Below are positions 15,708 to 28,369 of a stretch of DNA of 43,060 nt, one piece after another (the first letter of the stretch is position 1; every line of letters begins with the position of its first letter). The position numbers and the translations under genes are program-made. Source of the DNA: Verrucomicrobiales bacterium (GTDB taxonomy: Bacteria; Verrucomicrobiota; Verrucomicrobiia; Verrucomicrobiales; DEV007); the NCBI GenBank assembly GCA_029213195.1, contig JARGNI010000012.1, positions 93,254-136,313 on the forward strand, given 5' to 3'. The notes beneath the pieces are model-generated. The model had not been told where the DNA came from and did no database searches. It worked only from the letters and a program-made list of their open reading frames with translations.

Positions 15708-16628
15708 TCAGCCAGCGCCCCTTCTCGAGCCGTGTCCCGCCTCGCTGCCGACCCGATTCCAGAGCGCGGCGAAAAACCGCTCCGGGTCCAGCCCCATGGG
15801 AAGGCCGGAAACTCCTCCATCACCGACTTCCACGACCTTCCAGGTGCCATCCGTAAGAAAGGCCACATCGATCGTCAGGAACAGGGAACGAAACCGCCTC
15901 GCGATTTCCTCCCACCGCCACTGCTCGTCGAGAGGTGACGGCGAACGTTCGCTGGGTGGCACGAGGATCTGATTCTGCCAGAAAAACAATCGCGTTTCCT
16001 CGATCACCGGAAGTCCATGAATCTCGCTTCCCCGCTCGACGATGGGGAGAAACTCACGAAGCACCACCCCTCGATTGAAGCGAGCCCCTCGCTCAGTTCG
16101 GAAAACAGAAAAGATCTCCCGGAACCGCGCCTTGGTCGTTCCTGCCGGAATGAAGCAACCCTCCCTCCATCGCCGTTTCGCCGACTTGACCCAATCCTTG
16201 ATGATTGCGTCGCCGCCTTGGAAAGACTGGTAGAGCTCCCAGGCCTCTTCCACGTCTTCCCCCTCGATCCATTGACTGCGAGGAGCGTCCCCCACGAGGT
16301 GACGATAGGCCAGCGGCAGGTAGTGAGCTTCGTCATATCCTTCCGGAGTCACCTCGGGTACGTAGCCACGAGAGATCAGCTCTTCGTAGGCGAGTTCGTA
16401 AATCTCACCAGGCACCATCCATGAACGAAAAATCGTGCGGGATGGAGCGCCGGCAGATTGGAGATCCTGAAACGCCTCACTCGCCTCCCCCGCGGTGAGA
16501 GCGAGATGGTCATAGAGAAAGGTCGAAAACCCGATGACCCGTGCCGCTTCATACTCCTCTGCGAGCGCTGGGTCGACCTTGGAAGGCGATCCCGGCTGAC
16601 AGGGAAAAAGAATCAGAAACGCAGACAT
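15708..16628 (-). CDS. ATP-grasp domain protein (R2K-type), unknown substrate
   Basis: 306 residues, cytoplasmic. The C-terminal half carries ATP-grasp features: GGDAIIKDWVKSAK (ATP-contacting Lys region), EREFL-like segment VVLREFLPIVERGSEI, RLFFWQNQIL, FLTIDVAFLTDGTWKVVEVGDGGVSGLP with the acidic metal ligands near the end. This layout fits the R2K group of ATP-grasp proteins, which are usually annotated without substrate. ATP-grasp enzymes join a carboxylate to an amine or similar nucleophile via an acyl-phosphate. It starts 4 bases after the preceding unknown gene, which in turn follows crtO by 43 bases, so it may be co-transcribed with the carotenoid genes. Any link to carotenoic-acid chemistry is inference. 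Confidence 0.72.
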   Translation of the reverse strand: MSAFLILFPCQPGSPSKVDPALAEEYEAARVIGFSTFLYDHLALTAGEASEAFQDLQSAGAPSRTIFRSWMVPGEIYELAYEELISRGYVPEVTPEGYDEAHYLPLAYRHLVGDAPRSQWIEGEDVEEAWELYQSFQGGDAIIKDWVKSAKRRWREGCFIPAGTTKARFREIFSVFRTERGARFNRGVVLREFLPIVERGSEIHGLPVIEETRLFFWQNQILVPPSERSPSPLDEQWRWEEIARRFRSLFLTIDVAFLTDGTWKVVEVGDGGVSGLPMGLDPERFFAALWNRVGSEAGHGSRRGAG

Positions 16629-16632
16629 CTTC

Positions 16633-17247
16633 TCAGGTGATCGCTTCCACGATGCCGACGAACTCGTCGACTGCCTCTGCTCCTGAAATGGAACCTTCCG
16701 GGGCGGCCCCCGAGAAAGCCATCGCGACCGTCGAGAACGGAGCTTCCCCCTCGCAAAAAGGTCCCACCACCCCGATGCGCCAATCCGTTCCCGCCCAGTG
16801 CCCTTCGGCCATGCGGTAACGCAGGACCTCGAAGACCCCGGACTCGCCTTTCACGGCGCGCTCCATGTTCTCGATCGTCTCGACTTCCACAGGGGCGGCC
16901 TGGAGTTCGTTCGGGTGCAGCAACCAGTAACTGAGCATCGCTCTCGCCTGTTCCTCACGAGACTGCCACTCCCGGGGAAAGAGATCGTGTCTTTCAAAAT
17001 AGCCGAGCATCTCGAAGAGGAGCGGACGATTCTCGAGAGCGCTCCCCACTTCGCGAACTTCGTCGGGAAGCACACTCTCTTTTGCATTCAATTTCTCCGC
17101 GAGGGGATCGAGGCGATCGAGGATGACCTCATCCCTCTGAGCGATCCCTCGCCGCACCGATCCTCTTCTCCACATCACGTAGAAGGCAAGCAAGAGCAAG
17201 GGGATCGCGAGGAGATACCAGATCATCGATTCAAGAATGAAAGCCAT
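16633..17247 (-). CDS. Unknown protein with single N-terminal membrane helix
   Basis: 204 residues. A hydrophobic segment (about 8-25, MIWYLLAIPLLLLAFYVMW) is followed by Arg-rich residues and a soluble domain with helical first half (VLPDEVREVGSALENRPLLFEMLGYFERHDLFPREW) and a more beta-like second half (GVFEVLRYRMAEGHWAGTDWRIGVVGPF). No family recognised. The ATG at 17247 was chosen because the open frame further upstream overlaps crtO and is not hydrophobic; a second Met seven residues on is possible. It sits between crtO and the ATP-grasp gene with short gaps on both sides. Confidence 0.65.
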   Translation of the reverse strand: MAFILESMIWYLLAIPLLLLAFYVMWRRGSVRRGIAQRDEVILDRLDPLAEKLNAKESVLPDEVREVGSALENRPLLFEMLGYFERHDLFPREWQSREEQARAMLSYWLLHPNELQAAPVEVETIENMERAVKGESGVFEVLRYRMAEGHWAGTDWRIGVVGPFCEGEAPFSTVAMAFSGAAPEGSISGAEAVDEFVGIVEAIT

Positions 17248-17290
17248 TTCTCCGAGACAAGGTCTCTTGAGAATTCCTGACTCGAAAAGA

Positions 17291-17779
17291 TTACTCGCCT
17301 TCCTCGATTTGAGAAAGCAAATGTCGCATCCGGGCTCTCGTGAACCGCTGCAGGAGAATGCAAGGCAGGTTCGAAAGAAAGGCATAGACGATCATGACGA
17401 TGGCCGCGACCGGCCAGGGATTCCAGATCAGGGTGAGGAGGATCCCCGGGATCTGCGCGTAGTGGGCCGCCTCCCCGCGACAAGTCTCCCGGATGAAATT
17501 TCGCAGGTATTCCGGATCCTTTTTCCCCAGGCTCCCCTTGGCAAAGCCATCGAACCACGGCGCCGCATCGGGGATGAATCCCTTCCAGTTTCGAATGCGA
17601 AAGACGCGATGGTATACCGTCCCGTTCTTCTCCCAGGCGCGATGGCGAAAGAGAGGGCTCTGCGGAGAAAATCGCTCCGAGGAAAGCCGGGTAAAGATCC
17701 AGGAGATGCCGAGATGAATCCCCGGAATCCCGATCACGTTCAGGATCACAATCCAGAGGTTGGAAAGATCAAGCCACAT
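17291..17779 (-). CDS. crtO: Glycosyl-4,4'-diaponeurosporenoate acyltransferase-like
   Basis: 162 residues with hydrophobic helices at both ends (about 5-28 and 120-145). The middle matches staphylococcal CrtO: YHRVFRIRNWKGFIPDAA, then EYLRNFIRETCRGEAAHYAQI, where CrtO has the conserved FIxETCRaEltHw block. In staphyloxanthin synthesis this enzyme adds a fatty acyl group to the sugar of the glycosyl carotenoate. Do not confuse it with the cyanobacterial ketolase also named CrtO. The start at 17779 overlaps the end of the glycosyltransferase gene by 11 bases; an upstream frame extension of nine residues is less likely. Confidence 0.86.
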   Translation of the reverse strand: MWLDLSNLWIVILNVIGIPGIHLGISWIFTRLSSERFSPQSPLFRHRAWEKNGTVYHRVFRIRNWKGFIPDAAPWFDGFAKGSLGKKDPEYLRNFIRETCRGEAAHYAQIPGILLTLIWNPWPVAAIVMIVYAFLSNLPCILLQRFTRARMRHLLSQIEEGE

Positions 17780-18872
17780 CGCGCCCCTTCCATTGCACCT
17801 GCCCACCCTGCTTCTTTCTTCTCAGGGCACGAAAGAAAAGCCCCTGGTAAAAAAAGAGCCCGATTGGAAAGAGCAGGGCGCTCCAGGTCGAGAAGGATCC
17901 CGCGTGCTTTATCAGGTAAAGCGTCTGGATCGCGCAAAGTCCGTAGAGGACAAGGATCCCGATGAGAACGGTCGATCCTGCCAGGGGCAGAAAGGTCAGG
18001 GAGATCGTGCTCATGATGAGCCCGGAAAGCCAGAGTGAGATCCCGATGAGTGCGTTCCGGGGAGTGTTGTCCATTCCCGAAACGAATCCCTTGCTCCATC
18101 CACGAACCAGATCGTCAAACCCTTCCGGGAACATCCGCATCCAGATCGTCCCTTTCCCCAGGTAACAGCGGCACTCATACCCGGCTTCCGCGAGGGGGCG
18201 GGAAAGATGAAAATTCTCCAGCACTTCCTGCTTCACGACCTCGTGCCCTCCGACCTTCTCGTATTGTTCCCGCGAGATCAGGAGAGCCTGCCCGAAGAGT
18301 CCGATTCCCTCCGCCTCGTCCCCTTTCATCGAAAAGGCATTCATCCCCAGCAGCATGATCACATTGAAAAATGCGGACAGTTCCTCGTAGGGGCTTTCGA
18401 CACGGTGAAAGGGGCAGATCGAATGCACGGCACCGGCGTCCTCCGTCAGGGCAGCGATACGAGAGAGAGCCCCTTCTTCCAAGGCGGTGTCGGCATCGAG
18501 AAAGAGAAACCATTCCCCCTTTGCCGCCTCGGCGCCCTGCTGACAGGCCCATGGTTTTCCATACCACCCCTCTGGCAAAGGCTTGCCCGACAAAACCTGG
18601 GCACCGTTCTCGGTCGCCAGGGTGGCCGTAGCATCTTGCGACTGGTCATCGATCACGATGATCTCGAAATCAGGATAGTCCTGGGAAACGAGAGAGGGAA
18701 TCAGCCGCGAGAGATTATCCTCCTCGTCCCGCGCCGGGATGAGGATGGAGATCTTTGGCGTAGCCGCGGGACTCTCCACCATGGGCACTCTCCGGAAGCG
18801 AGCAGAGACGACCCAGCCAAAAACCCAGAAGCATCCGGTCAGACCGAGAAAGAGCCAGAAGAAGAGGTCCAT
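17769..18872 (-). CDS. crtQ: 4,4'-diaponeurosporenoate glycosyltransferase-like, family 2
   Basis: 367-residue membrane glycosyltransferase. An N-terminal helix (about 4-24) is followed by a GT-A domain: ISILIPARDEEDNL, IIVIDDQSQDAT, GWYGKPWACQQGAEAAKGEW and FLFLDADTAL with the DxD-type metal site, then EVLENFHLSRPLAEAGYEC and MFPEGFDDLVRGWSKGF. Three or four helices close the protein. This domain order matches CrtQ, which transfers a sugar to the carotenoic acid carboxyl. The sugar cannot be told from sequence. The ATG at 18872 begins the first helix; an upstream in-frame start adds 17 non-hydrophobic residues. A 123-base gap separates it from crtP. Related HpnI-type hopanoid glycosyltransferases are an alternative, disfavoured by the context. 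Confidence 0.85.
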   Translation of the reverse strand: MDLFFWLFLGLTGCFWVFGWVVSARFRRVPMVESPAATPKISILIPARDEEDNLSRLIPSLVSQDYPDFEIIVIDDQSQDATATLATENGAQVLSGKPLPEGWYGKPWACQQGAEAAKGEWFLFLDADTALEEGALSRIAALTEDAGAVHSICPFHRVESPYEELSAFFNVIMLLGMNAFSMKGDEAEGIGLFGQALLISREQYEKVGGHEVVKQEVLENFHLSRPLAEAGYECRCYLGKGTIWMRMFPEGFDDLVRGWSKGFVSGMDNTPRNALIGISLWLSGLIMSTISLTFLPLAGSTVLIGILVLYGLCAIQTLYLIKHAGSFSTWSALLFPIGLFFYQGLFFRALRRKKQGGQVQWKGRDVA

Positions 18873-18995
18873 GGTTCGAGAGTCACTGAGCAAGGTTTGG
18901 CGCCGCCCGCCGGGGCGAACCAACAGTATGTCTACGCCTCAGGTTTCCCGAGAAGTTGTCCCGAAATCCAAGGGCTCGCGAACGGATTCCGACGG

Positions 18996-20513
18996 TCAGG
19001 CCATTTTCGCTTCCTGCTTCACGACACGGTCGGAAACTTTCTGCCCACAGAGAATCGCCATCGGCATTCCCCCTCCGGGGTTTACACTTCCCCCGGTGAA
19101 GAAAAGGTTTTTGTATTTGGACGACTGCTTTGGTGCCTTGAAGGCCTGGTTGAGTTTCCAGTCGCTGACGACGCCATAGATCGAGCCCTGGTTCGAGTTG
19201 TACATCTGCTCGATGTCGACGGGAGTGAGGACGTCCTCGACAACAGTGTGCTTTCGCAGGTCGGTCAGCCCCATGCGTTCCAACTTGTCGATCACCCGCT
19301 CCTTGAGAGCCATGTATTCCTCGTGGGTATGCGGATTCTCCGGATCGATCGGGGGAATGTGGGGGAGGATCTTGATGTTGTCGTGACCCTCGGGAGCCTT
19401 TGAAGGATCGGTCCGGGTCGGAGCGACCAGGTAGATTGTCGGATCTTCGGGAAGCTTGCCCTGCTGGAAGACCGAATCGAAATGCTTGTTCTGGTTCTTC
19501 GAGTAGAAGAAGTTGTGGTGCGCGAGCTGGTCGTAGATCTTGTCCGTTCCCAGGTGGATGACGAGTCCCGAACAGGCTGGCTTGTATTTCTCCAGCTTCT
19601 TCATGAACTTGGGAGGCTCGCTGAGCAACTTCTTGTAGGCCGGAATGACCTCCATGTTGCAGACCACGTAATCCGCGGGAAGGGTTTCTCCGGACTTCAG
19701 GGTCACCCCGGTGACGGTCTTGCCGGACTGGTTGATTTTTTCCACTTCGCTGTCGAGACGGACCTTGACCCCGAGATCGGCGAGGAGCTTATCGAGACCT
19801 CGCGCGAGGTTGTACATTCCGCCTTTCACATACCAGAGACCGTAGTCGAACTGGATCAGGGACATCAGGTTCATGTATCCCGGCGCATCCTTGGCGGAGG
19901 ATCCGACATACTTGATGAAATATTCGAAGATCATCCGGAGATACGGATCGTCGAAGTGTTTTTCGATCGCGCCGGACATCGAATTTGAATGATCCATCTT
20001 CGTAATGAGCCGGAGCTTATAGTAGCGAAGCATCTCCCAGAGGGTGTCCAACCCCTCGGCAAAGTAGCCTTCATCGACAAGCTCATACTGATCGCGCCCA
20101 TAGGCGAGGAACTGCTGAAACTGCTTCCAGTGTTTCTCCGGATCTCCCTGGAGCTTTTCCAGCTCCTTCTGCATTTGATCCATCTCCTCATAGAGATCGA
20201 GGACCAGCCCGTCTTCGAAGAAATTTCTCCAGTGCGGAGTCACCGGCTCCAACTGCACATAATCCTCCATCTTCTTCCCGGCACGTTCCCAGAGGCTTTC
20301 GAAGAACTGGGGGAGCGTGAATATGGAAGGACCCAAATCGAATCCGAAGCCATCGATCTCCTTGAAATTCAACTTCCCTCCGATGCGCTCGTTCTTCTCG
20401 ACCAATTCCACGTCGAAGCCTTCGGCATGCAGGGAAACGGCGGCCGAAAGGCCTCCGAGGCCGGCGCCTACGACGATCACTTTCTTTCCCCGGGGGGAGG
20501 AGGAGGAGCTCAT
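18996..20513 (-). CDS. crtP: CrtI-type oxidoreductase, likely 4,4'-diaponeurosporene oxygenase
   Basis: 505-residue FAD enzyme. The Rossmann motif VIVVGAGLGGLSAAVSLHAEG starts near residue 12, with VELVEKNERIGGKLN and FDLGPSIFTLP following. The C-terminus reads NLFFTGGSVNPGGGMPMAIL, the ending typical of CrtP-type oxidases that convert a terminal methyl of a C30 carotenoid to an aldehyde. The start overlaps the crtN stop (ATGA), so the two are coupled. Which of the two paralogues desaturates and which oxidises is assigned by resemblance and order, not shown; both belong firmly to the CrtI family. Confidence 0.85.
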   Translation of the reverse strand: MSSSSSPRGKKVIVVGAGLGGLSAAVSLHAEGFDVELVEKNERIGGKLNFKEIDGFGFDLGPSIFTLPQFFESLWERAGKKMEDYVQLEPVTPHWRNFFEDGLVLDLYEEMDQMQKELEKLQGDPEKHWKQFQQFLAYGRDQYELVDEGYFAEGLDTLWEMLRYYKLRLITKMDHSNSMSGAIEKHFDDPYLRMIFEYFIKYVGSSAKDAPGYMNLMSLIQFDYGLWYVKGGMYNLARGLDKLLADLGVKVRLDSEVEKINQSGKTVTGVTLKSGETLPADYVVCNMEVIPAYKKLLSEPPKFMKKLEKYKPACSGLVIHLGTDKIYDQLAHHNFFYSKNQNKHFDSVFQQGKLPEDPTIYLVAPTRTDPSKAPEGHDNIKILPHIPPIDPENPHTHEEYMALKERVIDKLERMGLTDLRKHTVVEDVLTPVDIEQMYNSNQGSIYGVVSDWKLNQAFKAPKQSSKYKNLFFTGGSVNPGGGMPMAILCGQKVSDRVVKQEAKMA

Positions 20514-22087
20514 ACGGTAACTTTTGTTTTGCTGTATTGAAGACCGAAGGAATCGGAAATCAGGTTGGAGGAAATACGCGCCGACTCGAAAATCGTAGGC
20601 AGTCCACTTCCCGGGTGGGTTCCCCCGCCGACCAGATAACAGTTTCTGAATTCTTCAAATCGATTCCGCGGTCTCATGAAAGCGAGCTGAGAAAGACAAT
20701 GCGAGAGGTTGAAGGTGGCTCCTTTGAAAATATCCAGTTCGGTCTCCCAGGTCTTGGGCGTGTAGATCTTTTCCACCTCGATGTGCTCTTCGAGATCATC
20801 CATTCCCAGACGATCGGCGAGAGCCTTCATCGTGAGACCTCGATAACGCGCCTGAGCCTCCTCCCAATCGATGTCGCCATCGAGATTCGGGGTCGGAACG
20901 AGGATGTAGAGACTCGACTTTCCTTCAGGAGCAAGCGTCGGATCCGTCACACTCGCGTTCCGAATGTAGAAGGAAATGTCGTCTGACTCCTGCCCGGAAG
21001 TGAAGATTTCGTCGACGTTCTTCTTGTAGTCCTTGGCAAAGACGATGGTGTGATGTGGCAGGTCGTAGAGCTTGTCGACCCCGAGATGCATCATGAAGGT
21101 CGAGCAGCTGTACTTCATCGAGTTCAGCTTTTCCTTGGTGTATTTCTTCAGCGCTCCATCCGGAACCAACTGGCTCATCGCCTGGGCAAAGTCGGCGTTG
21201 ATGACAACACTGTCGGCATACACTTTTTCGCCGTTCTCCAGCTCCACGCCCGCGACTTTTCGTCCGTCGAGGATGAGCTCTTTCACTGCTGTGCCCGTGT
21301 GAATCTTGGCCCCGCAATCTGCCGCCGCCCTTCCGAGGCCGGCAGGAATCTCGCTGAGACCGCCCTTGGTGTGGAAAATCCCGTGCTCATGCTCCATGTA
21401 GGAGAGCATCGCAAAGGCCCCCGGACACTCCCAGGCAGACATCCCAAGATACTTGCTCTGAAAGGAAAAGAGGAGCGCCAGCTTCTCGTTCGAGAAATAC
21501 TTTTTCAGATTGTCGAAGACCGTCGTCCCCAGGGAAAGATGCGGCAGCGCCGGGAGCAAAGTCGGATCGAGCGATCTCGCCGGGCTCGAGAAGTCTCGTT
21601 CGAATGCGGGAAGGAGACGATTGAGCCGGGCTCTTTCCCGCTCCAGGAATTGATCCATTCCCGCGGATTGACCGGGAAAAAGTCGCTCGATCTCAGCCTT
21701 GGTGTCTTCGACATTGTCACCCGCACGGAAGACTTCATCATCGAACCGCAGCTCGTACATCGGATCGAGCCGCTCGAAGTCGAGGTAGTCTTCGGATTTC
21801 TTTCCAGATTCCTCGAAAATCCGATCCAGAAGCGACTTCATCATCAGGAAAGTCGGCCCGATATCGAACCGATAGCCATCGATCTCGTGGGCGGCCGTTC
21901 GACCTCCCAGTCGCTCGTGTTTCTCGAAAAGATCGACTTCGACGCCCCGGCTCGCGAGAAGCAACGCGCTGGCTACCCCACCGGGACCACCCCCCACAAT
22001 GATGACTCTCTTCTCTTTTCCTCCGGATCCATCCGAATCTGGTCCTCTCATCGTATCAATGACATTCCGTTGTTTTGTCTTTCCCAT
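20510..22087 (-). CDS. crtN: CrtI-type desaturase, likely 4,4'-diapophytoene desaturase
   Basis: 525 residues. FAD motif VIIVGGGPGGVASALLLASRG at about 28-48, then VDLFEKHERLGGRT and FDIGPTFLMM, as in diapophytoene and phytoene desaturases. The middle has FSFQSKYLGMSAWECPGAF and GIFHTKGGLSEIPAGL (substrate-binding region), and the end GGGTHPGSGLPTIFESARIS is the CrtI signature. It would introduce the conjugated double bonds. The N-terminus before the FAD motif is about 25 polar residues; a second Met at residue 13 is an alternative start. First gene of the minus-strand carotenoid operon, divergent from the aldehyde dehydrogenase gene. Confidence 0.87.
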   Translation of the reverse strand: MGKTKQRNVIDTMRGPDSDGSGGKEKRVIIVGGGPGGVASALLLASRGVEVDLFEKHERLGGRTAAHEIDGYRFDIGPTFLMMKSLLDRIFEESGKKSEDYLDFERLDPMYELRFDDEVFRAGDNVEDTKAEIERLFPGQSAGMDQFLERERARLNRLLPAFERDFSSPARSLDPTLLPALPHLSLGTTVFDNLKKYFSNEKLALLFSFQSKYLGMSAWECPGAFAMLSYMEHEHGIFHTKGGLSEIPAGLGRAAADCGAKIHTGTAVKELILDGRKVAGVELENGEKVYADSVVINADFAQAMSQLVPDGALKKYTKEKLNSMKYSCSTFMMHLGVDKLYDLPHHTIVFAKDYKKNVDEIFTSGQESDDISFYIRNASVTDPTLAPEGKSSLYILVPTPNLDGDIDWEEAQARYRGLTMKALADRLGMDDLEEHIEVEKIYTPKTWETELDIFKGATFNLSHCLSQLAFMRPRNRFEEFRNCYLVGGGTHPGSGLPTIFESARISSNLISDSFGLQYSKTKVTV

Positions 22088-22306
22088 ACTCGTTGGAGAT
22101 CAGGCAAAGCCTCTTTATTCTTCGTTTGAGGGAGCGCGTTCGTCGACTACTTTTTTCCGGGCAACTCGGAGCCGAATAACCGAGATCATGCTCGCTTCGA
22201 CTCATTCTCCATCGGGTTCCGCCCCTTTGCATGAGAATGACCGGCGGATTCCTGCGTATTTTTTGACCCCATCATGCTTCCATCGCCATCCAACCAGGAT
22301 ACCGCC
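22088..22306. promoter_or_regulatory. Divergent gap between crtN and aldH
   Basis: About 220 bases that should hold promoters for both carotenoid transcription units. On the plus strand, TTGAGG at 22126-22131 is followed 16 bases later by TACTTT within the run TCGACTACTTTTTTC (22143-22157). A nearly identical run precedes the amidase gene at 33048-33061. No clear repressor operator or terminator is visible. Confidence 0.4.
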
Positions 22307-23677
22307 ATGCCAGATTCATACGATCTCAACGCCCTCGCAGAAGCGCAGGCTGCCTATTTTCGAGAAGGAAATACCGAATCGCTCTCGTTTCGGATCGACC
22401 GACTCCGTGGATTGGAGTCGATTCTGACCCGACGCTCCGACGATCTCCTCGATGCCCTCGCCAGCGATCTCGGAAAGCCCGCGGTCGAGGGATACATGTC
22501 GGAGGTGTACTTCTCGCTTCTCGAAATCCAGCTTTTTCTGAAGAAACTCCCCAAGTGGATTCGCCCTCGTCGAGCAGGACATCCTTTTTTCGCCCTCCCC
22601 GCCCGCAGTTGGGTCCAGCGTGAACCCCTCGGGAGAGCCCTGATCGTTTCTCCCTGGAATTATCCGCTTCAGCTTGCCCTGAGCCCCCTCATTGCTGCGG
22701 TTGCGGCAGGGAACACCGTCATTCTCAAACCTTCCGAATTCGCTTCCACCTCCGCCAAACTGCTCGGCGAAATCATCGCCGAGGCCTTCAACCCCCAGCA
22801 TGTCGCAGTCCTCCAGGGGGGACCCGAGCTGGGGGAAGCCCTTCTCGAACTTCCTTTCGAAACCTGCTTTTTCACCGGCAGTGAACGGGTGGGACGAAAA
22901 TACGCCGAAGCGGCAGCCCGCAATCTGGCTCCCATCACCCTCGAACTCGGAGGAAAATGCCCCTGTCTCGTTTTGGATGACGCCCCCCTCGAGACCGCGG
23001 TGGAGCGAATCATCGCCACCAAGTTCTTCAACGCCGGCCAAACTTGTATCGCTCCCGATTTCGTTCTCGTTCCGGAAGCCCGACGGGGTGAATTTGTGAA
23101 ACTTGCGCAAGAGACCCTGGAGAAATACTACTCCGAAGATATCGAAGCCGATCTCGCGACGATGATCCACCAGGATCACTACGAACGAGTCGAGAAACTC
23201 TGCGATGGGTCCGCCATCCAGGTCGGAGAGGACGATAAAGGCTCGCTGCGCCTCGCCCCGAGACTCCTGCCGGAGGCAACCTGGAACTCAGCGGCAATGG
23301 AGGAGGAGATCTTCGGACCTGTCCTTCCCATCCTTGGATATACCAGCCTGGTTGAAACCTTGGCAGAATTGAGGAGTCGCCCCGATCCGCTCGCTCTCTA
23401 TGCCTTCACCAAATCCAGGGAAAAGATCGATCTTCTTCTCCGCGAAACCCGATCGGGCAGCGTTTGCTTCAACGACACCATGAAACAGGCGATCAACCTG
23501 GAGCTCCCCTTCGGCGGTGTCGGGGCCAGTGGCATGGGCCGCTATCGTGGGAAATACGGATTCGAAGCGTTTACCTACGAGCGCGCCATCACGAAACGGA
23601 CCTTCTGGAAGGACCCTTTCTTTTCACCTCCGCCCTACGGGAACCTCATCGAAAAATTGCGAAAATATGTGAAGTAA
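22307..23677 (+). CDS. aldH: Aldehyde dehydrogenase, probable diaponeurosporenal dehydrogenase
   Basis: 456-residue NAD(P)-dependent aldehyde dehydrogenase of the class-3 type. Active-site residues are intact: Asn118 in SPWNYPLQL, Glu214 in LELGGKCP and Cys247 in NAGQTCIAPDF; FGGVGASGMGRYRGKYGF marks the C-terminus. In C30 carotenoid pathways such an enzyme oxidises the terminal aldehyde made by CrtP to the carboxylic acid, and the position divergent to crtN supports that role. The substrate is inferred from context. I prefer the ATG at 22307, with AGGA a few bases upstream, over the ATG at 22274, which adds 11 residues. Confidence 0.87.
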   Translation: MPDSYDLNALAEAQAAYFREGNTESLSFRIDRLRGLESILTRRSDDLLDALASDLGKPAVEGYMSEVYFSLLEIQLFLKKLPKWIRPRRAGHPFFALPARSWVQREPLGRALIVSPWNYPLQLALSPLIAAVAAGNTVILKPSEFASTSAKLLGEIIAEAFNPQHVAVLQGGPELGEALLELPFETCFFTGSERVGRKYAEAAARNLAPITLELGGKCPCLVLDDAPLETAVERIIATKFFNAGQTCIAPDFVLVPEARRGEFVKLAQETLEKYYSEDIEADLATMIHQDHYERVEKLCDGSAIQVGEDDKGSLRLAPRLLPEATWNSAAMEEEIFGPVLPILGYTSLVETLAELRSRPDPLALYAFTKSREKIDLLLRETRSGSVCFNDTMKQAINLELPFGGVGASGMGRYRGKYGFEAFTYERAITKRTFWKDPFFSPPPYGNLIEKLRKYVK

Positions 23678-24584: not shown

Positions 24585-26957
24585 TCAATACCACCAGCTC
24601 CACCCCTTCGGTTTTTCCGATCCGGTGAGTTCCCAGGGATTGAAGTCCCAATCGACATCGGGAAACCATCGCATGATGTCAGCCTGGCTTCCCAAGGCGG
24701 TATTGCGATTTCGATTCACCAACTGCTTGTAGAAAAAGTCGGCGGTCCTCGGTGTTCTGGTATGGGTCCACGATCCGGCAATCGCGAGGATCCGGGCGGC
24801 TTCGTCGTCGTCCTGTGGCATCAGTCGCACCACCTCCCAGGCAAGATCCTGGGCCACGGATCGGTAGTGAAACCGGGAGACATAGGGCAGCTTCCCATAG
24901 TGCTCGAGCCGCCACCGTTCCGCTCGGGTGGCGGGGAGATTCCCCTCGACCGGTTCGCTCTGCGACCATCTCAGATTGCGACACTCGTCACGGTTTTCTT
25001 CTGCGAGGGGGTTTCGAAAGTGATCCGAGAAGTCGGGATCAAAACGTTCCACCGCACTTTCTCCCGATCTCACCTCGGCATAACTGCGTGAGGAGAAATT
25101 TCCTTTCCCGAGGCAAAACCAGTCCGGTCCCAGCTCCGTGCCAAAATATTCCATTCCCAGCTTCCGATGGATCTGGGCGGCTTCCCACCCTTTCTCGATC
25201 CGCTCGCCATCTTCCCGGGACGAATCGAGCAAGACGCGATACCCCTCGACATAGCGGTCGAAGATGGGGACAAGCTCATCGGGCATGAGGTCACGAGCAT
25301 TCTTGAAGTAATGATCCCGGGCCAGTCGACGCGCCGTGAGATAGCGAAGCCGGGCGTGTATCGTTCGCTCCCGGTGCGGCACGAAGTAGGGGTCATCGGG
25401 GCAGTGATCGAGAACCCAGCGAAGCAGCTCGTCGCGCGAGAGCAACTGCTCCGCGACATAAGCGACCTCATACCAGTAGCCGCTTTTCACGAAGGCATCG
25501 AGCGCCCCGACGACATCATCCTCGGCCAATCGAACCATACCCAGATCCCCCCAATATTGACTGTTCCGGAAGTCCAGCGCTCCTTCCTGTCGCACATAAC
25601 TCCACTGCTCGGTTCGAGGTTGGGACAGAGGGTGATCGAGTTTCGCTTCAAAGGAGGGTCGAACCTCCTCCAGGGCACGTCTCGCCTGGCTCGTTCTCCC
25701 CTGCTGCAGGTCCAGCTTCGCTTGCACCCAGTGCCCGACCTCATCGTATTCCCGGGCCCGGTTCAGCCAGCGTTCTGCTCTTTCGAATTCGCCGACCTGG
25801 TAGGAGAGCCAGGCCAGGCGACAAGCGTCGAAGTCGTAGACCTCGGCCTCCTCCATCGCAGAGAGCCAGGTTTCCTGCTTCTCATCCATAGACAACTGGT
25901 CCGGGCTCCAGTAGGAAACATGCTGAGGTCCTTCGAAAAGGCAGGCTGTCCGAATTCGGCGGAGGAAGGGGTCTTTCGCCGCAATCTTGACATCCATTTT
26001 CTTCACCAGCTCCGAGAGAGAGTTGCGACTGAACTCGTCTCCCGTTCGGGCATGGGCAAAGTAATAGCGAACCGCAAGACCGGGATTTCCTTCGAATTTC
26101 GACGTGTAGTCCGCAACGCATTTCAAGGCGTCCCACCCGACCCGAAAATTGTCGAAGCACCCTTCTTCCCGCAGGGTCAGCACTCGCCGAAAATGAGAGA
26201 TGCTTTTTCCCATGTCAGGATCGCCCTGGGCGAGTCGACAACGTCCGATCATATAGGAGGCGAGTGTGGAGCGATAGAGCCGCACTTCCTGCGGACGAGC
26301 GAGAAGCTTCTCGAAGTGGCCGATCGCCTTCTCGTAATCCTTTTCGCGGAAGGCGGCCGCCCCATCCAGGTAGTCGATGAATTCGTCGGGGAGTCCCTGG
26401 GGCCATCCCCGGGCGTCGATCTGGGCCTGGATTTCCGGATTCTTCTCCAGTCCGTACATGACCCGCCGGATTTTCTCATAATCATCGAGGAGAGTGCGGT
26501 CCGCGATCGCCTCGAACGCATTCGCAGCCATGGGCCGTCTCGCGAGGATCTCGGCCAGCTCTCCCATTTCGCGAGCCAACTCGGAGGGACTGGACAGCAG
26601 AAGGTCCCGGCAACCTTCCTTGTTCTCGAGCAAGTCTTCTGAACTCAGGCGATCGAGATACTCGTGCTCTTTGTAGGGGGATTTCGGTCCCTCATTGACT
26701 TGTCTCGCTCTCTGGATCCTGGAAGAAGGCATCTTTGCTGGAACGACCAGCCTCCCGGGGAGCGACACATCGAGTTCGATGCTCTCGAGCTCCACTTCGA
26801 AGATCGGGACCGGTGTCTTGATCGCCGAGTAGGCGGCTTGAAAAAGACTATCGGGAAACCAGGGGCCACAAGCCTCGGAGTTCCGGACGGATCCCGCGAC
26901 AGGGAGGAAGCTCGCCAAACAGAGGAGCCAGGTTCTGGAGAATGAGAGGGATTGCAT
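24585..26957 (-). CDS. Exported TPR-like helical-repeat protein, unknown function
   Basis: 790 residues. The N-terminus (SLSFSRTWLLCLASFLPVAG) is a signal peptide, soon followed by ACGPWFPDSLF, a short motif seen at the mature start of related exported proteins. Most of the rest is helical and repeat-like, with TPR-type stretches such as AAFREKDYEKAIGHFEKLL, YQVGEFERAERWLNRARE and LDLQQGRTSQARRALEEV. No catalytic motif is evident, so a scaffold role is plausible. The ATG at 26957 is chosen because it begins the signal peptide; the open frame upstream overlaps the DUF3142 gene. It lies 89 bases after that gene on the same strand, and the pair probably functions together. Confidence 0.72.
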   Translation of the reverse strand: MQSLSFSRTWLLCLASFLPVAGSVRNSEACGPWFPDSLFQAAYSAIKTPVPIFEVELESIELDVSLPGRLVVPAKMPSSRIQRARQVNEGPKSPYKEHEYLDRLSSEDLLENKEGCRDLLLSSPSELAREMGELAEILARRPMAANAFEAIADRTLLDDYEKIRRVMYGLEKNPEIQAQIDARGWPQGLPDEFIDYLDGAAAFREKDYEKAIGHFEKLLARPQEVRLYRSTLASYMIGRCRLAQGDPDMGKSISHFRRVLTLREEGCFDNFRVGWDALKCVADYTSKFEGNPGLAVRYYFAHARTGDEFSRNSLSELVKKMDVKIAAKDPFLRRIRTACLFEGPQHVSYWSPDQLSMDEKQETWLSAMEEAEVYDFDACRLAWLSYQVGEFERAERWLNRAREYDEVGHWVQAKLDLQQGRTSQARRALEEVRPSFEAKLDHPLSQPRTEQWSYVRQEGALDFRNSQYWGDLGMVRLAEDDVVGALDAFVKSGYWYEVAYVAEQLLSRDELLRWVLDHCPDDPYFVPHRERTIHARLRYLTARRLARDHYFKNARDLMPDELVPIFDRYVEGYRVLLDSSREDGERIEKGWEAAQIHRKLGMEYFGTELGPDWFCLGKGNFSSRSYAEVRSGESAVERFDPDFSDHFRNPLAEENRDECRNLRWSQSEPVEGNLPATRAERWRLEHYGKLPYVSRFHYRSVAQDLAWEVVRLMPQDDDEAARILAIAGSWTHTRTPRTADFFYKQLVNRNRNTALGSQADIMRWFPDVDWDFNPWELTGSEKPKGWSWWY

Positions 26958-27046
26958 AGTTCGAAGGCGGCGATTTCTCGGGTGCCACTCTTTCCCTACC
27001 GGGATTCTTCGAAAGGTTACGAAAAAAGTTCGATCGATCTTTCGCT

Positions 27047-28369
27047 TCACCTGGAAAACTCGACCACCAACTCTCCCGGCCCCGTCTTCCGAACCCAACC
27101 GATCGGAAGCTCGCGACCGATGGGGAGCGGCACGAAATCATGTTTTTGGGAAACGAGAGTGAAGGAAACCTCGTCTCCTGCCGCGCCTTCGGTGGCATAC
27201 CATCGCCCTCCATCCGCCCCCACCAGGGAGCCGGTGCCCTCGAGACGAACCGTGATCGCTTTCGGGAAGTGAGCATCGGGTAGCTCACCAGCATTGCGAA
27301 GCGTCAATCGGTGAAATGCCTCGTCCTCGGTCTGAATATCGACTCGCAACTCTCGCTGAGGTACTTCTCCGGCCCTTACCTTGGCCCAGGCCGAAGCCGG
27401 CCAGTTGAGAACGTCTCCTTTCACAGGCAGTCGATACCAGAAGACCCCCTGGAAGTGCGGATCGGGAGCTTGTCTCGACCAGGCGGAGATCATTCCCGCG
27501 ATCTCCTCGGCGGGGGCCTCTCCGAGAATCAAACGCTGATCTTCGGAAACTGTCGAGAAATCGAGATCTTCCGAGATCACGTTGACGACCTTCTCGGTAG
27601 ATTTGTCGAAGACGACAAAACTCGAATAGGTCGGAAGGGCGACGAAGTAGGGGGTCTCGAGTTGGGCAGCCTTCTTCACCGCGGATCGCGCGAGGGAGGG
27701 ATTCATCACCACCACGGGATCCCGCGCGCCCTTCGGAAGTTCGAGGGCATGCACCTGCAGGACGAAATAATCGGAGATTTCCGCGAGCGCACGAAACCCA
27801 TCCTTGTCCGAATCCAACCAGGAAGGGAGCGAGGTGAAACTCAGCTCGAGCGACGCCAGCTCCTCATCCTCCTGCAAGGATCTCAACAACTTCCCGTAGT
27901 CTCCCAATCGAGAAGCCGGACAATCGTAGTCGATCTGCAGTCCCACGACCTCCACCTCCCCGGCGGTCGCCTCCTTCAGCAACTCGCTCGCGAGGGAACG
28001 GGTTTCGGCACAGGCCCAGGAGTCCCAGTTCGTCTTTGCTCCGGAATCCCCGACCCGGATCACCAGGGTCAACGGAGGCCCTTGCTGCGAAAACGATCCG
28101 GGCTTCCACCGAATCCGCGTGACCTTGGCCTTCCTGCTCCCCGGCTCGAACGCGACCTCGGCAACGAGAGGAAGCACCCCCTGAATATCACCCGGCAAAC
28201 CCTGCAGAGCTTCGGCAACTTCCGCAGTCCAAACGCGCTGCCAGACATACACTCCCTCCGAAAGAGGACTTCGCGGCCCCTCGAGGGTACTCCGCAGGAA
28301 AAGAAGAAGACCGGCGGCGACAGCAATCCCTGCGATCCAGAGAAATCTACCAAGCAGGGCCTTTCCCAT
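27047..28369 (-). CDS. DUF3142 domain protein, membrane-anchored
   Basis: 440 residues. A helix at about 8-26 anchors or exports it. The following YVWQRVWTAEVAEAL is the opening of DUF3142, and the domain continues with VVGLQIDYDCPASRLGDYGKLLRSL, whose Asp residues at the end of a strand suggest a TIM-barrel, glycosidase-like fold. Residues 345-440 form an apparent beta-rich C-terminal domain. The function of the family is unknown. It is placed directly before the TPR-like gene and 8 bases after the SDR gene, in one minus-strand run. Confidence 0.78.
   Translation of the reverse strand: MGKALLGRFLWIAGIAVAAGLLLFLRSTLEGPRSPLSEGVYVWQRVWTAEVAEALQGLPGDIQGVLPLVAEVAFEPGSRKAKVTRIRWKPGSFSQQGPPLTLVIRVGDSGAKTNWDSWACAETRSLASELLKEATAGEVEVVGLQIDYDCPASRLGDYGKLLRSLQEDEELASLELSFTSLPSWLDSDKDGFRALAEISDYFVLQVHALELPKGARDPVVVMNPSLARSAVKKAAQLETPYFVALPTYSSFVVFDKSTEKVVNVISEDLDFSTVSEDQRLILGEAPAEEIAGMISAWSRQAPDPHFQGVFWYRLPVKGDVLNWPASAWAKVRAGEVPQRELRVDIQTEDEAFHRLTLRNAGELPDAHFPKAITVRLEGTGSLVGADGGRWYATEGAAGDEVSFTLVSQKHDFVPLPIGRELPIGWVRKTGPGELVVEFSR

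Follow-up and report, generated by a model that had tools for sequence, protein, structure and literature searches.

The stretch of DNA examined here, hereafter the window, covers 43,060 nucleotides of contig JARGNI010000012.1 of a Verrucomicrobiales bacterium (assembly GCA_029213195.1) and contains five genes resembling the late part of the staphyloxanthin pathway. Four lie on the reverse strand in the order crtN, crtP, a glycosyltransferase (GT) gene and crtO. The first encodes a crtN-type C30 desaturase of 525 amino acids (20510–22087) and the second a crtP-type terminal-methyl oxidase of 505 amino acids (18996–20513), with 455.5 and 376.4 bits, respectively, on the CrtI-family model TIGR02734 (cut-off 238.1). 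The third is an open reading frame (ORF) of 384 codons for a CrtQ-like glycosyltransferase of family GT2 (17769–18923; Glycos_transf_2, 82.2 bits), and the fourth an ORF of 171 codons for a member of the CrtO glycosyl-diaponeurosporenoate acyltransferase family (17291–17806; PF18927, 94.2 bits against a cut-off of 27.3). Divergent from these, on the forward strand, is an aldehyde dehydrogenase (ALDH) gene (22274–23677; PF00171 (Aldedh), 268.2 bits), presumed to serve the AldH step, and the region between it and crtN (22088–22273), to which no strand is assigned, is by its position a presumed divergent promoter; viewing its sequence established no motif. A first-pass annotation had given these five genes the same places and strands, and the family searches bear it out. 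Its interval began at 16633, which no longer holds: the ORF at 16633–17385 has no Pfam match, no NCBIfam match (it was searched there as 16633–17304) and no tblastn match at 1e-8 among the 103 loci compared, so it was rejected as a pathway gene and the cluster is taken as 17291–23677. The start of crtP shares 4 bp with the end of crtN. An overlap also exists between the GT and crtO ORFs, of 11 bp when they are read from the more probable internal ATGs (at about 18872 for the GT and 17779 for crtO). With these overlaps the four genes look like one transcription unit.

The identity of the two desaturase-like proteins was settled by the phylogeny that the first-pass annotation had called for, in a CrtI-family tree of 63 out of 81 rows; the 18 others were dropped to thin relatives, and one of them, the long branch L118, had been included in a preceding run. 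The window CrtP falls in a clade (support 99/95) with the CrtP of Staphylococcus and Cytobacillus, and first among the 263 matching plasmid records is a plasmid-borne CrtP of Staphylococcus equorum, to which it is 48.9% identical; its identity to Pantoea phytoene desaturases, among the matches listed, is about 30%. The window CrtN belongs to a 31-row CrtN clade (100/99) that stands apart from six C40-type CrtI rows (100/100), which include Pantoea, Deinococcus and the CrtI adjoining CrtB in relatives. A C40 CrtI identity is thus ruled out by the tree for both proteins, as the annotation had expected. The window CrtN is 32% identical to Staphylococcus CrtN, which sits on a long branch and whose placement the tree does not resolve. 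The GT is 33–34% identical to those of two Staphylococcus crt clusters. A GT2 gene adjacent to crtO, a CrtP-clade oxidase and a CrtN-type desaturase, i.e., the marks of a staphyloxanthin-type cluster, are all present, except for CrtM. Gene content and the CrtN and CrtP clades therefore support the late C30 pathway that had been proposed.

This arrangement is not peculiar to the window. CrtP relatives were taken as the best 80 of 301 genome-scan matches, chosen by CrtP similarity and nearly all verrucomicrobial; co-occurrence was scored by tblastn with the window proteins, and contig ends cut short 40 of the 80 loci. A homologue of the GT was found in 69 of these 80 loci, of CrtO in 63, of the ALDH in 72 and of CrtN in 61, with all five genes on one piece in 48. 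The ALDH homologue lies opposite the crtP strand in 65, and in 47 such an ALDH is combined with GT and CrtO homologues a short way downstream of crtP. With co-occurrence counts of this size in the CrtP-selected loci, the grouping is far above chance. The cluster is present in Rubritalea marina, Roseibacillus and Luteolibacter, and variants of it occur in five further phyla, in loci labelled Acidobacteria, Bdellovibrionota, Fibrobacteria, Spirochaetes and Kapaibacterium. In several of the non-verrucomicrobial loci the best ALDH match is weak (28–41%), in some it is on the crtP strand, and in the Spirochaetes locus none was seen by tblastn with the window ALDH. Of the 56 genomes of the order, 28 carry genes of the CrtO family. 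An orthologous locus, crtN-ALDH-crtP-GT-crtO, is present in R. marina, whose strain DSM 17716 has two CrtN-CrtP pairs (L157, L163); within the sequence covered, only one of these is accompanied by GT, CrtO and ALDH. The gene set is common in the order, and the window is a well-preserved, largely ordinary case of it.

What could supply the C30 skeleton has to be looked for outside the window, which holds no gene of the SQS_PSY family (PF00494), in agreement with the earlier remark that CrtM is absent locally. The host genome (5.9 Mb in 115 contigs, 95.4% complete) has two such genes only, each on another contig. The first (C24:6238-7002), hereafter gene A, encodes an HpnD-type synthase. HpnD is its best NCBIfam model, at 256.8 bits, below the TIGR03465 cut-off of 278.6, and an Edaphobacter HpnD adjoining HpnC is likewise under this cut-off, at 238.2 bits. 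In the tree of the family gene A groups with the HpnD of Sinorhizobium and Mycetohabitans (95/92), all HpnD and gene A rows fall on one side of a branch (83/79), and by this placement the HpnD-type enzyme of the HpnCDE route is present. Constraining gene A with Staphylococcus CrtM gives a p of 0.019 in the approximately unbiased test, for a grouping that was picked after the tree had been seen.

The second gene (C57:231878-232750), hereafter gene B, is harder to name. Its acid motifs, DTxAD and NILRDxxxD, resemble those of squalene synthase, unlike those of the HpnC rows, and squalene synthases head its list of PDB matches, at 44 bits. In the same tree, whose rows include no experimentally tested squalene synthase, it falls in a 16-row clade of its own (100/100), which adjoins HpnC in the unrooted topology without support (65/45). 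The R. marina orthologue of gene B scores best on the squalene synthase model, at 81.9 bits, where the cut-off of that model (TIGR01559) is 286.75. As the HpnD and HpnC models outscore the squalene synthase model for gene B itself, we call its product distantly squalene-synthase-like (SQS-like) and not a squalene synthase. Relatives of gene B, 35–37% identical, lie on Burkholderia and Caballeronia replicons (plasmid records H101-H105) at places without a listed gene. The host also has a squalene-hopene family cyclase of 602 amino acids (C85:22991-24706, L011; 90 bits, with a DADDT motif recognised by eye), and a short frame beside it looks related to it.

The genome search for crtM as against hpnC, hpnD and hpnE, which the first-pass annotation had recommended, thus gives an HpnD-type gene and, by PF00494 search and tree, no crtM, be it local or distant, and no CrtB, as no host SQS_PSY gene lies on the CrtB side of the tree; nor does the host pair a C40 CrtB with a C40-type CrtI. 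The synthase of CrtB or CrtM type that would have told against the C30 proposal was, by tree, not found in the assembly. CrtM is described as specific to Firmicutes (PMC10745290), and its absence is the expected state outside that phylum. HpnC and HpnE are each over the curated cut-off in none of the 56 genomes of the order, host included. The cut-off for HpnC, 250.45 bits, is crossed by the reference proteins of Edaphobacter and Sinorhizobium (307.8 and 273), and the HpnE search finds that of Edaphobacter at 414.6 bits, the one genome of six named ones to give a match over cut-off, the five verrucomicrobial ones giving none. Neither cut-off is crossed by any of 14 control genomes. Squalene had been assumed to come by the planctomycete HpnCDE route; of this, squalene as the likeliest precursor stands, and HpnCDE as the means does not, since by these cut-offs that route is not encoded in the host. 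The assumed supply is corrected to an HpnD-type plus an SQS-like enzyme.

The reading we favour, to which we give a probability of about 0.7, is that the cluster would be the tailoring half of a C30 glycosyl-ester pathway, with squalene, probably the C30 precursor, coming from the HpnD-type and SQS-like enzymes, the latter possibly enough alone. We infer each chemical step from the observed gene content, clades and layout, together with the lack of CrtM and CrtB by tree and of HpnC and HpnE by cut-off. Farnesyl diphosphate would be turned into squalene by enzymes coded elsewhere, namely the presqualene-diphosphate synthase of gene A and the SQS-like product of gene B, the second of which may be sufficient. 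CrtN would then convert squalene to a 4,4'-diapocarotene, CrtP would oxidise one or both end methyls to aldehydes, and the aldehyde dehydrogenase would take the aldehyde or aldehydes to acids. The GT2 enzyme would attach a sugar, which CrtO would then acylate. The predicted product is a diapocarotenoic or diapolycopenedioic acid esterified with an acylated sugar, a type of pigment made by Rubritalea squalenifaciens and by Methylobacterium extorquens AM1.

Several points weigh against this reading, or at least blur it. HpnD makes presqualene diphosphate (PMC6439483), and with HpnC and HpnE missing the synthesis of squalene would have to rest on gene B. In the NCBIfam search, gene B has 95.9 bits on HpnD and 67.4 on HpnC, above the 62.7 on squalene synthase and all far below the cut-offs, and in its PDB list phytoene synthase and CrtM structures follow close behind the squalene synthases, at about 38–39 bits. 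In the host assembly hpnD is unlinked to crt genes (it is on C24, and a further crtN, described below, on C115). A CrtB-CrtI pair is present in at least three of the 56 relatives (G002, G026, G055), and a further two (G033, G045) each have a synthase that the tree places on the CrtB side, so C40 pigments do occur nearby. Finally, the tailoring enzymes are far from characterised ones, with identities to S. equorum of 33% for the GT, 25% for CrtO and 35% for the ALDH. Sugar and acyl specificity are for this reason not readable, and the exact pigment, i.e., its sugar, its acyl chain and whether the acid is mono- or dioic, lies beyond the reach of sequence.

The two synthases are found together well beyond the host. 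With A and B labelled by tree placement where available and otherwise by PF00494 score range, both are present in 46 of the 56 genomes (in G004 with A in fragments), the exceptions being G001, G002, G003, G008, G009, G017, G018, G033, G038 and G045, and in 40 of the 42 genomes with a completeness of 90% or more and no more than 5% contamination. All 15 genomes among these 42 that have no CrtI-family gene over cut-off still hold the pair, which indicates that gene A is not dedicated to carotenoids. It is tempting to suppose that squalene in the Verrucomicrobiales is made by two enzymes, an HpnD-type one yielding presqualene diphosphate and an SQS-like one reducing it in the place of HpnC and HpnE, and that membrane triterpenes and the C30 pigment alike draw on this squalene; we regard this as a tentative proposal, with the odds rather against it. 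If true, such a two-enzyme set would be order-wide, extending to genomes where no carotenoid desaturase was found. In the alga Botryococcus squalene synthesis is split in a comparable way. No description of an HpnD plus SQS-like set was found for any bacterium in the literature searched; studies of the evolution of squalene routes may already treat the order. Neutrophilic Verrucomicrobia are reported to have a squalene synthase gene and not hpnCDE, most of them stopping at squalene (PMC9543262), squalene accumulation is listed for four Rubritalea species other than R. marina (PMC6439483), and a squalene synthase inhibitor lowers the bile tolerance of Akkermansia (PMC7671984).

Among the alternatives, the one that survives best has the HpnD-type enzyme acting like CrtM, thus giving CrtN dehydrosqualene in a staphyloxanthin-like chemistry, the squalene from the SQS-like enzyme then going to other membrane lipids. 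CrtM and HpnD share their first half-reaction, and gene neighbourhoods lend the idea some substance. In Verrucomicrobiota bacterium JB023 (L180:8989-14258), crtP, GT, crtO, the signal peptidase gene lepB (PF10502) and hpnD follow each other on one strand, the only case of hpnD directly in a C30 cluster among the best 80 of 301 CrtP loci. In five relatives of the window's genus (L102-L106) about 5 kb separates hpnD, a contig-end fragment in L106, from a crtN gene, and in L103 the genes between the two are lepA, a signal peptidase, a MerR protein and an ECF sigma factor; on host contig C24, by eye, lepA- and lepB-like frames precede hpnD. In addition, no orthologue of gene B was found in the 103 crt-centred loci. 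Against this, gene A groups with HpnD and not with CrtM, and its retention beside gene B in the 15 good-quality genomes without a CrtI-family gene gives it a role outside carotenoids. We therefore hold a CrtM-like HpnD to be unlikely, if still worth keeping in mind.

Squalene could also be made by a complete HpnCDE set of which HpnC and HpnE were missed, either because the genome is only 95% complete or because they are divergent, and gene B could then be a divergent HpnC. The host does have a distant HpnE-like oxidoreductase (74.2 bits), and the scores of gene B on the HpnC and squalene synthase models, as well as the unsupported position of its clade next to HpnC, point the same way. However, the cut-offs that the reference HpnC proteins and the Edaphobacter HpnE do reach are crossed in none of the 56 genomes, HpnE also being below its cut-off in all five named verrucomicrobial genomes, and gene B carries the NILRD motif and not the HpnC-type one; we consider this explanation improbable. 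A pathway that begins with a C40 phytoene synthase, and in which the cluster would act on C40 carotenes as an oxidising system, is hardly credible, in spite of the CrtB-CrtI pairs in relatives, since no host SQS_PSY gene is on the CrtB side of the tree and none of the three host CrtI-family genes over cut-off falls in the C40 CrtI clade. One of those relatives (G026; L108, L110, L104) combines a CrtB-CrtI pair with a C30 ester cluster and has, in addition, a crtN some 5 kb away from hpnD.

The third CrtI-family gene of the host (C115:2621-4093, L101:2606-4210; 460.2 bits) complicates the history of the cluster. Its neighbours are an ECF-sigma-like frame and a MerR protein, for which a full CarH light regulator was considered and rejected, as only the helix-turn-helix part matches CarH (43.6 of 400 bits) and its only Pfam domains are MerR ones. 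The CrtN encoded on C115 groups with those of the Rubritalea, Roseibacillus and Luteolibacter clusters (100/100), and the window crtN is placed with a Bdellovibrionales CrtN (100/99), in a lineage unlike that of these verrucomicrobial clusters. Because the two fall in different lineages, the cluster crtN seems to have been replaced in place by a crtN of other descent; an old duplication is the alternative that would explain two lineages in one host. The window-type crtN is found, by identity, in at least 19 of 33 genomes of the genus (window included) and is the sole CrtN over cut-off in 15 of these, so the window-type enzyme should work alone.

Around the cluster, an ATP-grasp R2K_3 family protein is encoded just downstream (15708–16628), and a DUF3142 protein (27047–28369) adjoins a TPR protein (24585–27098).

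The nearest known systems place these results in context. The staphyloxanthin cluster crtOPQMN of Staphylococcus (plasmid copies L200, L201) shares the set of CrtN, CrtP, CrtQ and CrtO and the aldehyde dehydrogenase step, but in the window there is no CrtM, the order is crtN-crtP-GT-crtO and the ALDH adjoins the cluster. The squalene route of Planctopirus limnophila uses CrtN and CrtP. An HpnD-type enzyme is needed for its C30 pigment (PMC11958385), and this enzyme is shared with the window's host, where HpnC and HpnE are missing. The AldH genes of S. aureus and Methylomonas are reported to be far from the crt cluster (PMC7764019), and for Methylomonas a squalene synthase without HpnCDE has been proposed (PMC10745290). 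M. extorquens AM1 resembles the present case in reaching a C30 acid by CrtN and CrtP types, and in GT and acyltransferase tailoring, without CrtM. It makes squalene by HpnCDE, its GT and acyltransferase were confirmed by deletion and complementation, and its product is 4-[2-O-11Z-octadecenoyl-glucopyranosyl]-4,4'-diapolycopenedioic acid; it differs in that its HpnCDE genes are clustered with a hopene cyclase gene and in that its ALDH is reported as unidentified (PMC10448405). R. squalenifaciens is a verrucomicrobial relative that makes diapolycopenedioic acid xylosyl esters (PMC3967232), namely A–C, and whose congener R. marina was the one in which the orthologous locus and the same two synthases, A and B, were read. 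No gene assignment for carotenoid glycosyl esters of the Rubritalea type was found in the literature searched, and the window cluster is a candidate gene set for them. The order would also suit a test of CrtN on squalene made without HpnC and HpnE. Overall, the cluster is typical of C30 glycosyl-ester gene sets, a kind that is already known.

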